Made by a program: the position numbers and the translations under genes
Source: a virus
Reading direction: 5' to 3' (one strand)
Length of the DNA: 23,802 bases
Virus record (IMG/VR): IMGVR_UViG_3300022842_000064
Coordinates: 1-23,802 of that record
Part shown: positions 3,830-20,409 of the stretch, piece by piece
How positions within the stretch are numbered: position 1 is the first letter of the stretch
Layout of the letters: every line of letters starts with the position of its first letter
The notes under the pieces: model-generated
The model's database searches: none
Told to the model about the DNA's origin: nothing
The model's input: only the letters and a program-made list of their open reading frames with translations

Positions 3830-4150
3830 TTACAAACTGTCGACCATTATCTTAACGGTCTGGTCTTGGTTTTCACCATTGGTGGCCGTGATGCGGTTTG
3901 TCAGGAAATAGGCCATGCCTTCAACCCCACCCGTCACAAACACCTTGGTTCTGGTTAAATCATCGTTTATTTCAGGTGACTCGGTGACCAAAAAAGGCGG
4001 CACCGTTGGGCCTTGCACTATCCATGAGGACGTAACAACGTCTGCGCCCTGCAGCCAGCCGTCACCGCCCTCAACATTAAGCCCGTTGCTGTCCCCCCAA
4101 TTAACACCGACCGCTGTGCGGCCGTCAGGGTCATGTGGGTACTTGTCCAT
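3830..4150 (-). CDS. Hypothetical structural protein
   Basis: A 106-residue protein coupled to the previous gene by a TAATG overlap (ATG at 4150). It begins MDKYPHDPDGRTAVGVNWGD and alternates short strands with polar turns, ending TNGENQDQTVKIMVDSL. The middle (KVFVTGGVEGMAYFLTNRIT) reads like an Ig-like or fibronectin-like beta sandwich. Similar small beta proteins occur next to capsid genes in other phages as decoration or fibre-associated proteins. I do not recognise a named family. Its place between the fibre block and the scaffold suggests a virion role. Confidence 0.6.
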   Translation of the reverse strand: MDKYPHDPDGRTAVGVNWGDSNGLNVEGGDGWLQGADVVTSSWIVQGPTVPPFLVTESPEINDDLTRTKVFVTGGVEGMAYFLTNRITATNGENQDQTVKIMVDSL

Positions 4151-4509
4151 TATGCAGATGCTTCGTACGTCAGCGAATCCACTTCAACCGTATCGCCAGC
4201 ACCAATGGCCAAACTGGTGATGTTGATGTCAGCGCCGCTAGTGCCAACAGTGCCCGTAATCATCACCGTGCCAGCAGACCGTTTCAACACGAATTTTGAA
4301 ATGGTGCCACCCACCGCGTTGGTGTCTGCAGCGATAGCGTTTGCCGTAGCAGCACCAGCAGCAGCATCACCAAAAGCCGGTGAGCCGAACGCGGGTTCTG
4401 CGACTTTAGCACTGCCGGTAGTCTGAAATTCGACCTTTCCGCCGTTGAGTTGGTCTACAACGTAGTCAGCCAGCCCGTTACGGACATCGGCTTCATGGGT
4501 TATTGCCAT
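4150..4509 (-). CDS. Hypothetical phage structural protein (MAITHEA-type)
   Basis: A 119-residue protein, ATG at 4509 with GAGG 8 nt upstream. It overlaps the previous gene by 17 bp. It starts MAITHEADVRNGLADYVVDQ, has an Ala/Gly/Thr-rich middle (AFGDAAAGAATANAIAADTN) and ends in beta strands with ITSLAIGAGDTVEVDSLTY. Proteins with this start and the 'aiGAGDTV.vsSLTY' ending recur in many phages near head or fibre genes; their function is not known to me. The composition is that of an exposed virion beta protein, possibly a decoration protein. Confidence 0.7.
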   Translation of the reverse strand: MAITHEADVRNGLADYVVDQLNGGKVEFQTTGSAKVAEPAFGSPAFGDAAAGAATANAIAADTNAVGGTISKFVLKRSAGTVMITGTVGTSGADINITSLAIGAGDTVEVDSLTYEASA

Positions 4510-4738: not shown

Positions 4739-7579
4739 CTACCTGCCAACAAAAGTATCCTTGCCGCTCGTTGGAACACGCACCGCTGGGCCTTTTTCTC
4801 CGGTCGAAGTCACGAAATTCGCGTCCGGCACGAATGCCTCAATGCCTCGCTGGTCGGCACTGGCTGTACCTGAACCAGCCTGCACACTGCTCTCGTTGTT
4901 CGGCACGCGGAACTCACCCGCAGAAACAACAGCAACCAGCTTGGCCCTTTCTGCCCTTAGCGCACCGGTTGCCGTGCGAACCACTCTAACCGTGGCGTTT
5001 ACCGTAGATCGGCTGGCCACCAGTTCCGCTGCAGTGACTATTGCTCTGCGGGACTGGGCGGATATGGCGGCTGGCGCAGCCTGCAGTGCACCTGTTGCAC
5101 GCACCACACGCCGGGCCGTACCAGTCAAAGCCGCCTGAGTCGCGGCAATGTCGCCAGCAACAACAAGAACCAGCTTCACGCTGCCAGAGACTTTAGCTCT
5201 GGCCGCCTGCAGTGCACCGGTGGCTTTTACCGAACGCGATGTGGTGGCGGAAACAGTAGCCTGCCCCGCACGCAACTCACCAGAAGCCCTGATCGCAGAG
5301 AAACGTCTTGCGATACCGGACACCGTGGCCGTGGCCGCCTGCAGTGTGCCGCTGGCATGGGCAATACGAATGGCAGAACCAGTGACCGCCGCTTGGCCCG
5401 CCGCCAACTGACCAACAGCCTTACGCTTAACACGTGCCGCACCAGCAACGCTGGCCGCCTGCGCCTGCAGCGAACCAAAGCTTGCGCCTGTGCCGAAGAA
5501 AGTTGCTTCACCGGCAACGGTAGAAGTCTGCGCCTGCAGCTCACCTTGTGCTGTGAGTTTTCGGGTCGTTGCGCCGGACACCGCCGCTGGCTGTGCTTGC
5601 AGTGAACCAGTGGCCGTTATTGTGCGCGAGGCCGTGCCGGACACCGCAGATGTTTGCGCCGCCAGATCGCCTGTCGCCTTGACCTTGCGCGTGGCGGAGC
5701 CAACTACCTGCGATCGACTTGCGCGTAATGCGCCGGACACCGTGCCAACAGCGTAGCTCTGACCCGCACCAGTAACAGCAGCATCCTGCGCTGACAATAC
5801 GCCGGTGGACTTGACCTTTCGAGTGGCCGAGCCGGTGACTTGAGCAACGGCCGCCGCCAACTGCCCAGAAGACTCATGGACAGAATATTCCCGTCCACTA
5901 CCAGAAACAGCAGCTCGCTGCGCCTGCAGTGCACCGGTTGCTTTGACCTTGCGCGTGGCCGAGCCAGCGACTTGGGCCGTTCCTGCTTGCAGCGCGGCAC
6001 TGGCCTGACCTATAGAGAACGCATCGCCCGCGCCACTAACTTCAGCACGTTGGGCCTGCAGTGAACCGGTTGCCTTGACCTTGCGAGTGGCCGCGCCGGT
6101 GACTTCAGCTCGCTGCGCCGCTAGTGTGCCAGCGGCTTCCGATACGGTGTAGTTGTCACCCGCGCCGGTGACTTCAGCGCGTTGGGCAGCCAGTGTGCCG
6201 GCTGCCTTGACCTTGCGCGTAGCAGCACCGGTGACTTCAGCACGTTGGGCCGCTAGTACACCACCAGCCTCAACAAGGGCTTGTGTATCAGCAACGCCCG
6301 AAACAGCAGCACGTTGAGCAGCCAGTACGCCGGTTGCCGTCTTGGTAGAAACGCCGTACGTGTTGCTGTCGAAATCTACTGGAAGAAAGCCGCTCCAAGC
6401 CTCAGCACCGTTGTTCATCGTGCCGTTAAAAGAGCTGCTGTTTATACCCGACCGCGTGTTGTTGTTGACACCAACACCAACACCGTTAGCGCCTGTCCAG
6501 TCGCCTTCGACGTCTTGTGTGCCCAGCGTTGAGCCGTCAGTGGTTTCACCATAACCCAGCGTGATGAATTCTTTGGTGTCGGAAGCAAAAACGTAAATTT
6601 TTACACGGCCTATTCCACTTGGCCTTATACACCAATAAATATCAACGGCCTGCCCCGCAAACAGAGTGCTGTCTACTGAGGCAAACGCTGTGTCGTTGTT
6701 AGCTGCGGTGTTGTTGCCCTGACCGGCTGCGCCTACCAGCAAACCAGCGCCGTTAAAGGCGAGGCCCATACCGTCACCACCGGCACCTGATTCAATGAGA
6801 AGACCTACGGGTGACGCTGGAACATCAACGTCTAGGAATGCAAACGTGACGCTTTCGGAGTCGTTAATGATAGTGCCGTCAGAGAACACAGAACCGGTGT
6901 GCCCTTGTGGCTCCGCCCAATCTGCCGTTGGGTAGCCGTCAAATGGTGTGCTGGACAACTCAAGTGTGTCTGCCGCCCCGCTAACCGAAGCAACAGCTGC
7001 CGCCAGCACGCCAGAGGCTTTTACCTTGCGAGTGGCCGCGCCGGTGACCGTGGCCGAGACCGCCTGAAGCGAGCCGCTGGCAGTAACAACAACGCTTACA
7101 GTAAAAGCACTTGATACAACAACGTTGCTGGCATCAACCCCGTCATACCAAACTGCAGCCAGCTTGTAGCTGCCAGAGATGAGTCCGTTAATGGCATCGC
7201 CAGTGAAAGGGTCAGTCGTTACGTCTGGTGCAGGGTCGTTGCCGAAAACGCCGCTTGCTACAGTACCCTCTATGATTTCGGTGTCGGTCGGGTCGGCTTG
7301 GCCACTAGGATAAATCGCCCAGTAAATAGTGGGTTCGTAAAGCACAACGAACGTATCACTCACAACAACGTTGCTAGTCGCGCTCCCATCGTCCCAGACC
7401 ACGGCTGTCTTGTAGCTGACGCCCTGCGCCAACCCGGTAAGAGGGACGGTTGCTGTGTCCGTTACAGTAGGCGATGCCTGACTGAAATGAATGCCATTGG
7501 GGACAGCCTCAGTGATGACCTGAGTATCTGTAGGGTCAGCCTGCCCCGAAGGATACGTGGCTACGTAAAGAGTGCCCAT
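4739..7579 (-). CDS. Large tandem-repeat fibre-like protein with FN3-like and lectin-like domains
   Basis: A 946-residue protein starting at ATG 7579 in a TAATG overlap with the preceding gene. Residues 1-162 hold two related beta domains, each with YPSGQADPTDT and a later SNVVVS. Residues 167-207 are two repeat units; 208-410 form an inserted Gly/Asn-rich beta domain resembling LamG/SPRY-type lectin folds. Residues 415-888 hold 22 more repeats of the form TG-x-LQAQRA-x-VSG-x-ATRKVKA. The C-terminal 58 residues are unique. Hallmark leucines are spaced 23 and 21 residues in strict alternation from L419 to L639, then mostly 21. A repetitive beta-helical or rod-like virion fibre is likely. Its location in the head gene cluster suggests capsid attachment; host binding is an inference. 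Confidence 0.8.
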   Translation of the reverse strand: MGTLYVATYPSGQADPTDTQVITEAVPNGIHFSQASPTVTDTATVPLTGLAQGVSYKTAVVWDDGSATSNVVVSDTFVVLYEPTIYWAIYPSGQADPTDTEIIEGTVASGVFGNDPAPDVTTDPFTGDAINGLISGSYKLAAVWYDGVDASNVVVSSAFTVSVVVTASGSLQAVSATVTGAATRKVKASGVLAAAVASVSGAADTLELSSTPFDGYPTADWAEPQGHTGSVFSDGTIINDSESVTFAFLDVDVPASPVGLLIESGAGGDGMGLAFNGAGLLVGAAGQGNNTAANNDTAFASVDSTLFAGQAVDIYWCIRPSGIGRVKIYVFASDTKEFITLGYGETTDGSTLGTQDVEGDWTGANGVGVGVNNNTRSGINSSSFNGTMNNGAEAWSGFLPVDFDSNTYGVSTKTATGVLAAQRAAVSGVADTQALVEAGGVLAAQRAEVTGAATRKVKAAGTLAAQRAEVTGAGDNYTVSEAAGTLAAQRAEVTGAATRKVKATGSLQAQRAEVSGAGDAFSIGQASAALQAGTAQVAGSATRKVKATGALQAQRAAVSGSGREYSVHESSGQLAAAVAQVTGSATRKVKSTGVLSAQDAAVTGAGQSYAVGTVSGALRASRSQVVGSATRKVKATGDLAAQTSAVSGTASRTITATGSLQAQPAAVSGATTRKLTAQGELQAQTSTVAGEATFFGTGASFGSLQAQAASVAGAARVKRKAVGQLAAGQAAVTGSAIRIAHASGTLQAATATVSGIARRFSAIRASGELRAGQATVSATTSRSVKATGALQAARAKVSGSVKLVLVVAGDIAATQAALTGTARRVVRATGALQAAPAAISAQSRRAIVTAAELVASRSTVNATVRVVRTATGALRAERAKLVAVVSAGEFRVPNNESSVQAGSGTASADQRGIEAFVPDANFVTSTGEKGPAVRVPTSGKDTFVGR
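4916..6337 (-). repeat. 22 tandem coding repeats of 63 or 69 bp
   Basis: Corresponds to residues 415-888 of the 946-residue protein; two further units lie at 6959-7081 (residues 167-207). The DNA is also repetitive: near-identical blocks encoding ATRKVKA occur around 5675, 5941, 6071, 6203 and 7018. The first ten intervals alternate 69 and 63 bp, pointing to duplication of a 132-bp double unit, whereas later units are mainly 63 bp and more diverged. Such repeats can expand or contract by recombination. Confidence 0.9.
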
Positions 7580-8298
7580 TAGAAGGTCACCGAAACATCA
7601 AGGCTTGCGGAGTTTGCAGTAATACCGCTCACCGTGGGCGCGGAGAGTGTTGGTGTGGTTATTACAGGGCTATCAGGTGCAGAAGACCCATCCGTACCAA
7701 ACCCCACGTTATCAAATCCAGTAGGCCAGTCGCTGCGAGAGCTTTGGAACCCCATTTTGCCCGCTGTTTGTATGCGGTCTACGCTAGTATCAACAGATGT
7801 TTGCGTCCACGAGAAAGGTTCTGCTGTACCAACAAGCCACTCTTTCCATTCTAGCGTTACCGTAGTTGTACCGCTGACCCTTGCACGGACATTAAAAAAC
7901 CCCGGCTGGCTAATGGGCACAACCATCCCATAATAGTCAAACCTGAAATTGGAGGCAGGTATGACTCGACGAATTTCAAGGGCTGACTGAAGGCGGTTAA
8001 AGTAATAATAAGATGAAAAATCTCCCGCCACCCTCAAAGCTAGACCACTATTACTGCTAGAGTTTGATGATTTGAATAAGCACCTAATTTCAGAGTCTAC
8101 AGAGGCAGGAACAGCAACAGGTACGGAGATGCCGTGCGTATCTGTTACTGTCTTAAGCCTGTAAACCCTAGAACCTACTGCCGCAGAATTATCATCGACA
8201 ATTATCTCATCCGCTGCGCCATCAGAGGTTTCTGTGAAGAACAGCGGGTCGATAGCACCTATTGGCTGATCTTCAAAATCGTAGTAAAACTGAGCCAC
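7579..8298 (-). CDS. Beta-sandwich virion protein, paralogue of the next upstream gene
   Basis: A 239-residue protein starting at ATG 8298 with AGGGGTAGGG just upstream, 13 bp after the preceding gene. It begins MAQFYYDFEDQPIGAIDP, which matches the start of its upstream neighbour (MAQYFTDFNNNPLGGID). The middle (residues about 20-200) has strand patterns of a concanavalin/LamG-like jelly roll, including YYYFNRLQSALEIRR and VTLEWKEW. A GSSAPDSPV linker precedes a short C-terminal beta tail. I take it to be a virion surface or fibre protein, possibly carbohydrate binding. No catalytic motif is visible. Confidence 0.65.
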   Translation of the reverse strand: MAQFYYDFEDQPIGAIDPLFFTETSDGAADEIIVDDNSAAVGSRVYRLKTVTDTHGISVPVAVPASVDSEIRCLFKSSNSSSNSGLALRVAGDFSSYYYFNRLQSALEIRRVIPASNFRFDYYGMVVPISQPGFFNVRARVSGTTTVTLEWKEWLVGTAEPFSWTQTSVDTSVDRIQTAGKMGFQSSRSDWPTGFDNVGFGTDGSSAPDSPVITTPTLSAPTVSGITANSASLDVSVTF

Positions 8299-8311: not shown

Positions 8312-9682
8312 TTAAACAGTGATCGTGACGTTGGGAACCGCAGAAAACTCTGTGATGCTTGACGCGAAAACAGTGGAAAGGGTTGGCACAAGCGACCCGG
8401 CGACCTCGGTAAAGTTGACCATAGTTACAATCCAACTTCTCGTACTAACTATACTGAACTCTATGTATTGCGTATCTGGGGCAAAGTAGACACCGGAGTA
8501 GACCTGTAAACGGTTACTGTCTGTATTTGGGTGTTTGTCTGTGTTAACTAAAAAGTATTCAGCGTCAGATGCACTCTGCATACTGAAAACAAATTGATTT
8601 CCTCCCGCGTATGCGTTCACAGCGAACACAATAGACAATGCTCTATTAGCCGTAGTTTGTGTTAATGAGGTCGTTGTGGCTGTACCCGTCGAAGACACCG
8701 TATCAGCAAACGTAAAATCCACAGCTGTCTTGTAGGCGAGCACCAACGCTTCCATACGTGCTGCTGCAGACTGGGTAAGTGTCAATGATGTTCCCGCCTC
8801 GCTACCGTCAGCAATCTTCCACATGACACCACTACGCTGAGAGGCAATACCGTATATAACATCGCCGCTTTTTGTGTATCCAGCAGGGGGATTGATTGTG
8901 GCCCTTGCGTAGTATGGGACTAATATCAAGTCGCCCGCCTGTATTCTTGGGTCTATAGATACCGTTAACGATGTTCCTGAAGTCACAAAAGACGTTTTTG
9001 TCTCTGCGCAGCGCAGCTCCAAGAAGTCTATCGGTACAGGTGCCGTTGGGGCAGAACTTGCTCCTGTGCCAACAGCGTATTCAATGTAATTATGTACAGT
9101 GCCGGTAAAAGCGTTCATACAGATGCCGACAGCCCCTGCTTCGGGTATATCTGTATCTGTAGCAGTCAGTCCCCAGCCAGCTGGCTCAGGGTCTACATCA
9201 GCCCACGCCTTTACCGAGAGCGCGGAGCCTATAACAGAAAACCGAACGCACAAATCACCCGTAGTGGGCAACGCAGCAAGAGCTAGGCTAGTAATTACGG
9301 TCTCTGTGCCGTTTACATATTTTGCTATTTCAAGAACATTGTCCCCCACACCAGCATAGTAAAAATGGGTGTCGCTGTCTGTGTTGGACGAGTTTTTTGC
9401 CTTATCCGCCCGTGCCGCCAAGAAAAAAGAAGATGGCACATCACCAGAAACCAAACGAATTTTGGCGTACAGCTCAACGTCTGCTGTATCGGGTAAATTA
9501 TCATACGTGGCCAATTTACGTGAGCTGTTAATTGCTACTGCTAAGTAGCGTGTAGCGCCGTCTTGGATTATGTTCCAGCCAACTATCGAGTACCAAACGC
9601 GCGGCGTCCATTCGGCTATGGCGGGGTAGACATCTATCCCGCCAAGAGGATTGTTATTGAAGTCTGTGAAATACTGGGCCAC
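8312..9682 (-). CDS. Two-domain beta-rich virion protein (lectin-like)
   Basis: A 456-residue protein starting at ATG 9682 with GGGGAG upstream, 3 bp after the preceding stop. Residues 1-205 form a LamG-like beta domain starting MAQYFTDFNNNPLGGID and ending near a GTGASSAPTAPV linker, the same plan as the 239-residue neighbour. Residues 215-450 form a second beta domain with DLILVPYYARATINPPAGYT, WKIADGSEAGTSLTL and ALVLAYKTAVDF, a pattern common in phage receptor-binding or head-fibre proteins. No enzyme motif is visible. Surface display and glycan binding are inferences from fold type and neighbours. Confidence 0.65.
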   Translation of the reverse strand: MAQYFTDFNNNPLGGIDVYPAIAEWTPRVWYSIVGWNIIQDGATRYLAVAINSSRKLATYDNLPDTADVELYAKIRLVSGDVPSSFFLAARADKAKNSSNTDSDTHFYYAGVGDNVLEIAKYVNGTETVITSLALAALPTTGDLCVRFSVIGSALSVKAWADVDPEPAGWGLTATDTDIPEAGAVGICMNAFTGTVHNYIEYAVGTGASSAPTAPVPIDFLELRCAETKTSFVTSGTSLTVSIDPRIQAGDLILVPYYARATINPPAGYTKSGDVIYGIASQRSGVMWKIADGSEAGTSLTLTQSAAARMEALVLAYKTAVDFTFADTVSSTGTATTTSLTQTTANRALSIVFAVNAYAGGNQFVFSMQSASDAEYFLVNTDKHPNTDSNRLQVYSGVYFAPDTQYIEFSIVSTRSWIVTMVNFTEVAGSLVPTLSTVFASSITEFSAVPNVTITV

Positions 9683-15923: not shown

Positions 15924-17135
15924 TCAAAATCCCCGTTCTGTCCCAATATCCATTGCGGCTGTCGCGCGGTTAGTGACGCCAACGAACCGTACTCCATGTC
16001 TTTTACAGATTTCCTGCCCAAGGGTCAAGCCCCGCTCGCCACCATACACCAACAGTGTCTCTGGCTTCAACAAGTCTAGCCCAACACCAATGCTCGCACG
16101 GAAGTCATCTTCGTCCACGCCCTTGCCGCCTTCGCCGGACTTCAACGTACGCCCGCCAACCGTCTGAATCTGGCAGGACAGGGTGGGGGCACGCTCTGGA
16201 ATCGGTGCACAGCAGCCCTCAACGCTATCAAGGTTCCACTCACAGAGGCTTGGGATTACGGGGAGTCCGGCCATCTGCCAGTACAGAGCACAGTAAAACG
16301 ATCGGTACACGGCCCACAGGTTTTTTGGCAGCGGCCAGCCGTCCATGCGCGTGAAGTCAGGCATGGTCAGCGCGTATGGCCCAGCGTTAAGGAATCGCTG
16401 AGTGTTGTCCCGCAGCTTCGACCACACACGCTCAAACCGCACATCGTCAATGTAAAACGAGATTACGGTGTCTGCCGGGTTTAGTCCCTTGGTCGATTCT
16501 CGCCCAAACAGGTGGTAGTGCATCTGGCCTTGGCCCAGCGGTGGTGTGCGGTGCCGATTCATCCACACCACCATTTCCTCTGGTATGTGGGGAATGTTCT
16601 TGGATAGGAGGCGGGGCAGCTGGTACGGCCCAACGCAGTCGCTGGCGTGCAAAGCAAGGGACTCTTTCAGCTCACGCATGCCAAACGACTCAGTGCCCGC
16701 ATCCTCAAACTCGTCCGGCGCGTCTTCCTCCGCCTCAAAATTAAGCAGCTTATCCAGCTCTTTCTCGCTGAATCCCATGTCTGAAACGTCAATGCTTTTG
16801 CTGTCCAAGTCCCGCAAAATCTCGGCCACAGCATCGAAATCAGAGCCTGTCATAGCGTTGGTTTGGTTGTCAGACAGGAGAAACTTACACTGGGCCTCAT
16901 CGCTCAAACCAGCGACTGTGATAACAGGACATTCCACATCGCCCCGCTTCTTGTGAGCCATCCACCGGCCGTGGCCAGCAAGTATGACACCCTGCTCGTT
17001 CACAACAATGGGCTGTATTGACCCCTGCGTGTTGTCCATCGACTTAGCAATACGATCGATCTGCTTGTCAGTATGGATTTTGGCGTTCTTGGGATGGGGT
17101 TTCAGGGTGATCGGGTCACGCATTTCAATTTGCAT
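15924..17135 (-). CDS. ParB-like N-terminal domain fused to a DUF4417-like domain
   Basis: A 403-residue protein starting at ATG 17135 with GGAGG 7 nt upstream. Residues 1-95 form a ParB/sulfiredoxin-fold domain: LKPHPKNAKIHTDKQIDRIA, QPIVVNEQGVILAGHGRWMA (GHGR box at 54-57) and FLLSDNQTNA. Residues about 96-170 form an acidic linker. Residues about 222-390 resemble DUF4417: YALTMPDFTRMDGWPLPKN, a Tyr/Trp-rich YRSFYCALYWQMAGLPVIP and a final VRFVGVTNRAT. There is no HTH of the chromosomal ParB type, so specific parS binding by this protein is not expected. Phage ParB-fold proteins are often NTPases, nucleases or partners of DNA-modifying enzymes; the role here is unknown. It is the first gene after a strong promoter. 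Confidence 0.78.
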   Translation of the reverse strand: MQIEMRDPITLKPHPKNAKIHTDKQIDRIAKSMDNTQGSIQPIVVNEQGVILAGHGRWMAHKKRGDVECPVITVAGLSDEAQCKFLLSDNQTNAMTGSDFDAVAEILRDLDSKSIDVSDMGFSEKELDKLLNFEAEEDAPDEFEDAGTESFGMRELKESLALHASDCVGPYQLPRLLSKNIPHIPEEMVVWMNRHRTPPLGQGQMHYHLFGRESTKGLNPADTVISFYIDDVRFERVWSKLRDNTQRFLNAGPYALTMPDFTRMDGWPLPKNLWAVYRSFYCALYWQMAGLPVIPSLCEWNLDSVEGCCAPIPERAPTLSCQIQTVGGRTLKSGEGGKGVDEDDFRASIGVGLDLLKPETLLVYGGERGLTLGQEICKRHGVRFVGVTNRATAAMDIGTERGF

Positions 17136-17758: not shown

Positions 17759-20409
17759 AGGGAAGCCCTCACCCAACGTTCGTCACCCAACTGGTACGAA
17801 GGTAGCGCCCCCATGTCTAAACGCGCCACAGCGCCCCAATTAGCCCCAGCCTCAACATCAATAATTAACGGCACTCTCAATCCCTCGTAGGTTGTTTCCA
17901 TAATGTGAACCATTTCCCGCAAAGCCTCGCAGTGTATCGGTGAAGTCAGGTCAACAGAATTGTCCAATTCATCGTGCACAGTCAGGTAAGGCACGCCGAT
18001 CACATCAAAGATGCCAGCGCGCTCGCACTCGACCATGGCTTTTTTCATCACGTCCGCCGCCCCGCCCTGAATCAGGGAGTTCAGCGCCTTGTAAGTAAAA
18101 GCCCTCTTAATCGCCTTGCCGTAAGCCTCTTTGGCGGCGTCATGCGACAGGGCAGGGCGTTTGTCGTCAAATTCTCGCGGTTCCCACAGATCAAAATGCC
18201 GCACACGGCCGCCGATAGTGGTGAGCACGCCGTCTGCTTCGGCTTTGGCCATGACTCTTCGGGACAGCTGTTTAATGTACGGTGCGCCTTCGTGGAACGC
18301 CTCAAACAGCGGCTCGGCTTCGGCAACGTCCATGCCCATGTTCGCGGCCATTAAATCTTTCCCCATACCATAAGTGTTGGACACCAGTTTTCCGTTGCAC
18401 GTGAATCGGTGCAATGGCCCCGCATTCACGACATCGTATACCCTGACCTGTTCCGCAGGTTCTCCGAACGTGTCACCAGCCGCAGGTTCGACAGTTCGTA
18501 GTGGCCGTTGTTGTCTATCCTGTCCACTTCCAGCTTGCCGTTCGTGAATTCCACATTCTGCGCCAGCGCCCAGTGAATGAATTCCTCCCTTGTCATGCGT
18601 AGCTGAATCCCCCGCTCTTTGTACCGCCGGACGCTGTGCGGTTGTGCCGTACCACTCACGCAGCGTTGGCGCATCGCATCGTACCGCTTGCTGAGTATCA
18701 CCGCAGACTTCGCATCGCCGTACTTGCTCGGACGACAGCAGTTCACTGCCCCCTTGCGCGCGTTGTCCACGTAGACTTCTCTCGGCTTGCCACAGCGGGG
18801 GCAGTTGATCACTGCCTTCCAGTTTTTCCCACGTGTCACCGACAGTACCGTAAACCCCAATAGGGTTAGCTCCGTCTCCACTTCGGCACAGGTTTTCGCC
18901 TTCGGATGCCGCGCACCCGAGACAAACTGTCCTGCCTGATTCCGTCCAGACTTTGTGGTCTGGCGTTCCAGTAACTCCGTCATACGTCACTACCTCGCGT
19001 ATTCCCATGTCCACCACACCATCGTGGCTCACCCACTCTACTCCATCCCATACTTTATGCCTAGTGGTGAGTTTTTCAATCGGAACCTCGCCCGAATCCG
19101 TCAGCACCAAAGAGCCTTCGGCAACACACATGCCAAGCCATATCGCTTTAACTTGGTTGCGGTTTAGGTTGTCGGGCATGGATTCCATCATGCCGTTGTA
19201 GCAGTCCAGCAGTGGGTCGTTGGCGTACGCGGTGACCACCTGTTTAGCGTCTGGGCCTCTGGCATAGGACAGCAGCAGGCGTGGCTCGATTTGTGAGTAG
19301 TCGAGCTTGACCCATGACTGCCCTTCTTCGGGTCTGTAGAGGGTTCGGATGGTTTTGCCGACTTCGCTGCGTGCTGGAATTTGCTGCAGGTTAGGCAAGC
19401 TGGAACTCATGCGGCCGGTCACCGTGCCATATTCATCGCCTTTCAGCTGGTTGAACTGACAGTGAATGCGCCCATCGACCAGATTGGACAGAATCGAATT
19501 TTCCAGAAACGTGCTGCGCATTTTGTCGTACTGCCGTGCCCGCAAAACAGCCTCTGCCACAGGATGATGATGGCCGGACAGGAATTCTTTGGTGAAGCTG
19601 GGCTTGCCAGTAGGTGTGCGGCGATATTTCAGGCCCAGCTTGTCAAAGAGACGGGCTAGGCTGGCAGCGGCCCAGACTTCGACACCCATGCCGCCGTTCA
19701 GGTGTTTCAGTTGTGCCAGTGTAGTTTCTAGGCGGCGCGTAAACAGCTCTTTCATGGATTCCGCATCTAGCCTATGCACAGGTACTCCCCGCCGCTTCAT
19801 CTTCAACAGCAGCGGTTGCAGGGCGGTTTCCAGCGCCCATACCTTCTGCGGCACGATCGGTAGCTGCAGCTGCAGGATTTTCAGCGGTAAAACTACATCG
19901 GATATGGCGTAGTCATTAACAATGGACGCAGGACAGCGCCAGATATTACCGGCTTGGGCTTTGCGGGTTGCTTTGCCGCCGAACCGGCGCGCGGCGTATT
20001 CATACAGCATTTCATCGTTTTTGCCTTCGTCCAGATACTTGCGCGCCAGTGTTTCCAGCGAATAGCTGCGCTGGTTTTCGTCAATCAGCGCCTCCGCCAC
20101 TTGAATATCGCACCACTGCCCAGTGAACCAGACGCCCCACTCCGCCAGATAGTCAAAGTCATACAGCAGGTTAGTGCCCGTAACCGGCACACCGCTCGCC
20201 GCCAGCGCCTTCAAGCGGCCAATGACATCGACCAGCGGCATGTTCTCCGACTCAGGGTGCTTGACCGGCAGGTATTCAGCCTCAATCGAGCCGTCATCGT
20301 GCAGCACAGCAATGGCTACGCCGACCACAAACCCACCCCGCCGTACGCCGGCACCCTTGGTTTTCAGGTCGTCATCACGTGTTTCAGTGTCAATCGAAAT
20401 CAGTTGCAT
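17755..20409 (-). CDS. Family A DNA polymerase containing an intein
   Basis: An 884-residue precursor (633 residues after splicing), ATG 20409 with AAGGA upstream, overlapping the AraC-like gene by 10 bp. The 3'-5' exonuclease domain is intact: SIDTET (D7, E9), GTNLLYDFDYL (79-89) and NDYAISD (165-171). Polymerase motifs are TGRMSSSLPNLQQIP (331-345), motif A VKLDYSQIEPRLL (D370), motif B RNQVKAIWLGM (417-427) rejoined after the intein to TYGMG (679-683), and motif C VHDELD (811-816; D813, E814). This resembles T7-like replicative polymerases. The intein (428-678) splits the O helix of the fingers, so unspliced protein should be inactive. Confidence 0.93.
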   Translation of the reverse strand: MQLISIDTETRDDDLKTKGAGVRRGGFVVGVAIAVLHDDGSIEAEYLPVKHPESENMPLVDVIGRLKALAASGVPVTGTNLLYDFDYLAEWGVWFTGQWCDIQVAEALIDENQRSYSLETLARKYLDEGKNDEMLYEYAARRFGGKATRKAQAGNIWRCPASIVNDYAISDVVLPLKILQLQLPIVPQKVWALETALQPLLLKMKRRGVPVHRLDAESMKELFTRRLETTLAQLKHLNGGMGVEVWAAASLARLFDKLGLKYRRTPTGKPSFTKEFLSGHHHPVAEAVLRARQYDKMRSTFLENSILSNLVDGRIHCQFNQLKGDEYGTVTGRMSSSLPNLQQIPARSEVGKTIRTLYRPEEGQSWVKLDYSQIEPRLLLSYARGPDAKQVVTAYANDPLLDCYNGMMESMPDNLNRNQVKAIWLGMCVAEGSLVLTDSGEVPIEKLTTRHKVWDGVEWVSHDGVVDMGIREVVTYDGVTGTPDHKVWTESGRTVCLGCAASEGENLCRSGDGANPIGVYGTVGDTWEKLEGSDQLPPLWQAERSLRGQRAQGGSELLSSEQVRRCEVCGDTQQAVRCDAPTLREWYGTTAQRPAVQRAGDSATHDKGGIHSLGAGAECGIHERQAGSGQDRQQRPLRTVEPAAGDTFGEPAEQVRVYDVVNAGPLHRFTCNGKLVSNTYGMGKDLMAANMGMDVAEAEPLFEAFHEGAPYIKQLSRRVMAKAEADGVLTTIGGRVRHFDLWEPREFDDKRPALSHDAAKEAYGKAIKRAFTYKALNSLIQGGAADVMKKAMVECERAGIFDVIGVPYLTVHDELDNSVDLTSPIHCEALREMVHIMETTYEGLRVPLIIDVEAGANWGAVARLDMGALPSYQLGDERWVRASL
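18376..19128 (-). mobile_element. Intein in polymerase motif B
   Basis: Residues 428-678 of the polymerase precursor (251 residues). Block A starts at C428: CVAEGSLVLTDSGEVPIEKL. Block B is VTGTPDHKVWT (T482, H485). Block F is VRVYDVVNAGPLHRFTCNG, and block G ends LVSN|T with terminal N678 and the +1 extein residue T679. The usual penultimate His is Ser677. Removing it rejoins IWLGM to TYGMG, a good family A O helix. No in-frame LAGLIDADG or HNH motif is visible; the middle (about 499-655) has a low-complexity look, and an HNH gene occupies the same DNA in the +1 frame. Splicing is inferred from motifs. Confidence 0.92.
18426..18983 (-). CDS. HNH homing endonuclease nested out of frame in the intein
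   Basis: A 185-residue protein on the same strand as the polymerase but in the +1 frame, wholly inside the intein. ATG 18983 has a GAGG 9 nt upstream. Residues 61-83 have CPRCG and later NCC, a likely zinc site. Residues 98-140 include SKRYDAMRQRC, YKERGIQLRM and REEFIHWAL. Residues 152-178 carry the HNH core EVDRIDNNGHYELSNLR followed by TRSENLRNR, a very typical phage HNH homing-endonuclease ending. Its start codon lies in the codons just before block B and its stop in block F. It probably cuts intein-less polymerase genes to spread the intein. Target and activity are untested. Confidence 0.85.
   Translation of the reverse strand: MTELLERQTTKSGRNQAGQFVSGARHPKAKTCAEVETELTLLGFTVLSVTRGKNWKAVINCPRCGKPREVYVDNARKGAVNCCRPSKYGDAKSAVILSKRYDAMRQRCVSGTAQPHSVRRYKERGIQLRMTREEFIHWALAQNVEFTNGKLEVDRIDNNGHYELSNLRLVTRSENLRNRSGYTMS

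Follow-up and report, generated by a model that had tools for sequence, protein, structure and literature searches.

A probable accessory phage adhesin with a beta-rich repeat stalk, encoded beside a garland-like gene

We propose that P0001, a 946-aa repeat protein of an uncultivated phage, is an accessory virion adhesin with a beta-rich repeat stalk, anchored at the head or neck more likely than at the tail tip; we hold this reading, taken as a whole, to be fairly probable. The window is the whole stretch of DNA that was analysed (23,802 nucleotides, IMG/VR record IMGVR_UViG_3300022842_000064). P0001 would be the long subunit of the adhesin, with its FN3-like and insertion domains and the proteins encoded by ORFs 7579-8298 and 8312-9682 touching the host surface, its 22 repeats acting as a beta-rich spacer in which the linker between units can have either of two lengths, and the garland-like and PF23148 proteins connecting the stalk to the particle. 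Stalk length may be altered between phages by gain and loss of units, as seen in relatives of another family member. The features concerned are:

3830..4150 (-), PF23148 protein (family of the GP4 fibre-tail adaptor gp77), E=1.3e-11
4150..4509 (-), garland-like protein, phrog_3758, E=2.9e-10
4739..7579 (-), P0001, 946-aa repeat protein, open frame
4742..4897 (-), non-repeat C-terminal tail of P0001
4898..6334 (-), main array, 22 repeat units, residues 416-894, by 21/23 motif spacing
5675..6334 (-), strictly alternating 23/21 block of ten units, by leucine spacing and 132 bp tandem DNA period
6344..6952 (-), insertion of ~200 residues between the solitary units and the main array, lectin-like only by eye
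6953..7078 (-), two solitary repeat units, L171 and L192, by motif spacing
7085..7579 (-), two tandem FN3-like domains, residues 1-80 and 81-165, which align with each other
7579..8298 (-), ORF upstream of P0001, related to the 8312-9682 ORF by sequence alignment
8312..9682 (-), second ORF of this type, with probable adhesion-type domains

The repeat array and its family

The strict motif occurs 22 times in P0001, whereas shuffling the array region yields 0.034 occurrences on average. From L419 to L874 the leucines are spaced by 23 and 21 residues, five times over, and then by 21, 21, 23, 21, 21, 23, 21, 21, 21, 21 and 21 residues; a run of ten alternations has p=0.0065 under permutation of that set of spacings. 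TRF reports periods of 63 bp and 132 bp in the array DNA with only 69-74% matches, so the duplications are old rather than due to recent slippage. An earlier note on this DNA had described much of this organisation, and its description holds: all thirteen leucines that it listed (L171, L192 and L419 to L639) are at their positions in P0001, ten strictly alternating spacings from L419 are followed mostly by 21, the 132 bp DNA duplications are recovered alongside the 63 bp period, its array limits (4916-6337) agree with ours (4898-6334), and L171 and L192 do stand alone before the insertion. Its lectin label for that insertion, on the other hand, finds no backing in Pfam or PHROG, where 6344..6952 has no match, and no relative of this segment was found among the fetched loci.

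The array is one of many. A profile scan with the garland-like protein gave 80 loci, and a 21-23 residue periodicity was frequent in the products of genes at most three places away from the garland gene. From these garland-proximal proteins we trained a 13-position matrix (consensus SGALAAQAATVSG), which had 676 matches vs. 108 in shuffles, with unit spacings among family members of 21 (219), 23 (101), 22 (70) and 26 (22) residues; reversed sequences gave no valid null for repeat calling, because the motif is nearly palindromic. When loci selected by their garland gene were grouped at 90% garland identity into 53 non-redundant IMG/VR clusters, 37 had a repeat protein, of 4-31 units each, and several of the others were contigs ending beside the garland gene. 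Repeat ORFs were concentrated close to the garland gene (41/290 at a distance of up to three genes vs. 9/346 further away, Fisher p=6e-8), and all nine of the farther ones were only 4-6 genes away. Long 23/21 alternation was seen in the window and in four other loci (L030, L059, L070, L096), in line with the two-unit periodicity that the earlier note had claimed; distinct phages thus have the two-unit period in common, whether through descent or through constraint.

The family is seldom matched in cultured phages. An HMM built from the window's units and run on 1048 ORFs reached Vibrio phage K354 (4e-10), 501E54-1 (2e-5), L021 and L022, the last two being weaker matches because the reversed control scores too, and tblastn reached Sphingopyxis phage VSN-002 (6e-6). 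In VSN-002, an unannotated 488-aa ORF directly after the garland-like gene (L004:5956-7422) encodes a Gly-rich region and, after it, 23-residue repeats. The repeats of P0001 and ten relatives had no clear match in Pfam or PHROG: PF21722 and phrog_2295 fall on a Gly-rich domain of L046, phrog_10080 spans residues 241-429 of the L056 repeat protein, and phrog_20477 matches that of L075 at E=0.0066 only. A PDB sequence search with the repeat profile gave no match, and a scan of genome contigs with the array gave no relative. The P0001 array belongs to a repeat family that is unnamed in the libraries searched (Pfam, PHROG). In 37 clusters of environmental phages this family lies next to garland genes, which links it to a protein whose structure is solved. 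Related stalks in dozens of unrelated environmental phages probably hold host-binding domains off the particle.

Neighbouring genes and position on the virion

A profile of phrog_3758 relatives matches PDB 9rkv_A at E=1.1e-7. This chain, from the tail-fibre entry of Agrobacterium phage 7-7-1, is the 7-7-1 garland protein, and the match identifies the 4150-4509 product as its homologue; the same homology extends to the garland protein of Milano. The 7-7-1 protein is named gp014 in PMC12796354 and, by our reading of gene order and length, corresponds to locus 7-7-1_000103, with which the aligned chain sequence agrees. According to PMC12796354 and PMC10811340, the garland proteins of both phages surround tail fibres, and their fold resembles T4 gp8 and A511 gp105 (PMC10811340). 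Adjoining the garland genes are 7-7-1 genes 107-109 and Milano 001-003, among whose products one has G-x-W-x-Y-P-x-Y-x-x-x-G repeats in a register that is, by eye, the same as the window's. In the passages of PMC12796354 and PMC10811340 consulted, no repeat protein is placed in either structure, and these genes are specific candidates as structural genes of the two phages. As markers of capsid fibres, genes 107-109 were rejected: they are present in both phages, with fibres reported in 7-7-1 and none identified in Milano.

The 3830-4150 product scores 45.3 bits against PF23148, above the Pfam cut-off of 27, and so falls in the family of the fibre-tail adaptor gp77 of GP4. GP4 is a podophage, whereas the window's phage is a siphophage by gene content, and PDB chain 8jou_D, possibly the GP4 protein, was matched only at E=0.38. 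PF23148 relatives directly adjoin the garland genes in L030 and L031, which share the order repeat-garland-PF23148 with the window. Homology to the garland protein and to the GP4 adaptor family is what suggests these two products as stalk connectors, and their presence next to P0001 supports the virion-fibre setting first put forward in the earlier note.

Upstream of P0001 in the direction of transcription are terminase, portal, a Mu-F-like protein and ORFs 8312-9682 and 7579-8298; downstream are the phrog_3758 and PF23148 proteins, scaffold and a Gp13-like capsid protein. In L008 and L011, whose capsid protein is 53-54% identical, no such cassette is present between Mu-F and scaffold, which argues that the cassette is accessory. 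The tail genes of the same phage are on contig L005/L027, with a Phage-tail_3 hub, a Gly_rich_2 protein, a CBM_5_12 protein and a tape-measure-like protein recognised by eye. Among 19 loci classified by their nearest recognised neighbours, window included, portal, capsid, TerL or neck genes were nearest in 16, and tail genes in three (L044, L046, L101), as follows for the head-neck group:

Portal just upstream of the cassette: L065, L067, L076, L088, L098, L104
Portal and MuF upstream: L105, window
MCP upstream: L038, L056, L068, L078
Cassette beside TerL: L030, L031, L034 (ambiguous, with a tail protein upstream as well)
Cassette by neck genes: L075

By eye, L021 and L022 suit the head-neck group too. 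Judged from gene order, and from a tail-tip module that is encoded separately, the adhesin is more likely to be anchored at the head or neck than at the tail tip, as far as gene context can indicate.

Fold of the repeats and alternative readings

An AlphaFold model of six units was all-beta, with pLDDT 71 and pTM 0.66. Modelling of four units, which the earlier note had proposed as a check, also gave an all-beta structure when a 23-row alignment was used, but at a pLDDT of only 60.6; neither model has a helix, at modest to low confidence. A fold search of the PDB gave no match at E<=0.001; as to a beta-solenoid, FapC, CsgA and ice-binding proteins are among the weak matches. The rod or beta-helical fibre imagined in the earlier note thus gains from the beta content of the models, but not from their confidence or from the PDB. 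Each 21- or 23-residue unit would consist of a pair of short strands flanking a tight turn (sequence pattern G-x-L-x-A-Q-x-A-x-V-x-G).

Ranked by probability and TM-score, the first viral structure match was the minor tail protein encoded by gene 96 of Gordonia phage GodonK (probability 0.97, TM 0.67, E 0.17, 24% identity), which the window's sequence profile did not reach. GodonK had been reached earlier through a PF23148 relative two genes from gene 96, but gene 96 sits among tail genes, unlike the window's cassette. Adenovirus-type triple beta-spiral shafts are also built of short repeats, of about 15 residues, in which two strands come with a tight turn and a loop that varies; the likeness is in pattern only, the window's units being 21-23 residues long. 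The phi29 head fibre gp8.5 is likewise a virion surface fibre made of repeats, reportedly a helix-turn-helix supercoil, to judge by the title of a reference cited in PMC12796354; helical repeats of this type are not matched by our helix-free models, at their low to modest confidence. The P0001 stalk would be a new variant of phage fibre. We consider the stalk of conserved beta repeats, as part of a modular phage adhesin, to be real; host contact, attachment and fold are what we infer.

P0001 could instead belong to the tail, as a fibre or a tail-tip adhesin, its genes lying in the head block by chance and the PF23148 protein being a strict fibre-tail adaptor. We think this rather unlikely, although the PF23148 family is named after such an adaptor, the solved garlands of 7-7-1 and Milano encircle tail fibres, and the GodonK relative is annotated as a minor tail protein and located after the tape measure; in addition, the L044 cassette adjoins a tail fibre, that of L046 follows a tape measure, and that of L101 is beside tail genes, all of which count against a head or neck position. 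In the window's phage, however, tail-tip adhesin genes are already at their usual place, and most classified loci fall in the head-neck block. A low-complexity spacer, mostly disordered and with no fixed fold, is in our view a very unlikely account of the repeats: their composition is Ala/Gly/Ser-rich and AlphaFold confidence is low, but conservation is position-specific over 37 clusters, unit lengths are restricted and the models are all-beta.

Another explanation would make the repeat chain a 'string' that threads dimeric garland beads, one unit pair per dimer, rather than a self-standing stalk. The authors of the Milano tail structure (PMC10811340) describe garland dimers that seem to be arranged as a filament, and call it unclear what the string is; repeat and garland genes co-occur, the 23/21 alternation is a two-unit period, and the repeats alone fold without confidence in AlphaFold. 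The same source gives a different string candidate, gp126, however, and the motif suggests strand pairing inside one unit, which leaves this explanation quite improbable. Just as much of a long shot is a widespread, uncatalogued appendage in which repeat chain, garland-like dimers and PF23148 adaptor form one unit, the chain being the string and the 23/21 pair the predicted site for one dimer. How the garland is held together is thereby given an explanation that can be put to the test.

Stalk length, flanking domains and other observations

Returning to P0001 as an adhesin with a stalk, the earlier note had suggested that fibre length could vary by recombination, and had held that a constant repeat number together with a predicted disordered chain would speak against it. 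The first half of this holds in the three contigs available for this phage, where the number is constant: the same P0001 protein recurs in a second IMG/VR contig, the array is intact in a third, and in these contigs (L002 and L003) the main array has no indel vs. the window, with 4-5 mismatches across the whole overlap. The variability is found elsewhere in the family. In L048, L073 and L075, most flanking proteins share 90-98% identity, with lower conservation at the -3 and +1 positions, whereas the repeat proteins have 57-64% identity and differ by blocks of, for example, 43, 42, 26, 21 and 20 residues, so that gain and loss of units is seen between close relatives of that member. A stalk changing by unit blocks amid near-constant neighbours would be a simple way to alter surface reach.

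Residues 1-165 of P0001 may be FN3 domains, and the C-terminal tail (4742..4897) is a possible attachment segment. ORFs 7579-8298 and 8312-9682 are 23% identical over 223 aa (E=1.5e-5), and both end in a similar terminal peptide of ~25 residues (PTLS...) that resembles FN3 first strands. P0001 starts at the point where the remainder of such a domain would begin, and the last ~25 residues of the 7579-8298 ORF could be the missing first strands of P0001's opening FN3-like domain. The 7579-8298 ORF and P0001 are joined by a TAATG stop-start overlap, which we prefer to a programmed frameshift, no slippery site being visible by eye.

Two glycosyltransferase-like ORFs (by eye) lie beside the repeat protein in the head block of L021 (1662-2258, 4478-5275) and of L022 (8885-9481, 11314-12111). 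Elsewhere in the window, a family A DNA polymerase ORF (PF00476, 17755-20409, minus strand) has an intein-like Hint stretch at ~residues 425-660, by eye, and is overlapped in another frame by an HNH-endonuclease-like ORF (18426-18983, minus strand) with no Pfam match at E<=0.01. The ORF at 15924-17135 (minus strand) combines DUF4417 with a sub-threshold ParB N-terminal match.
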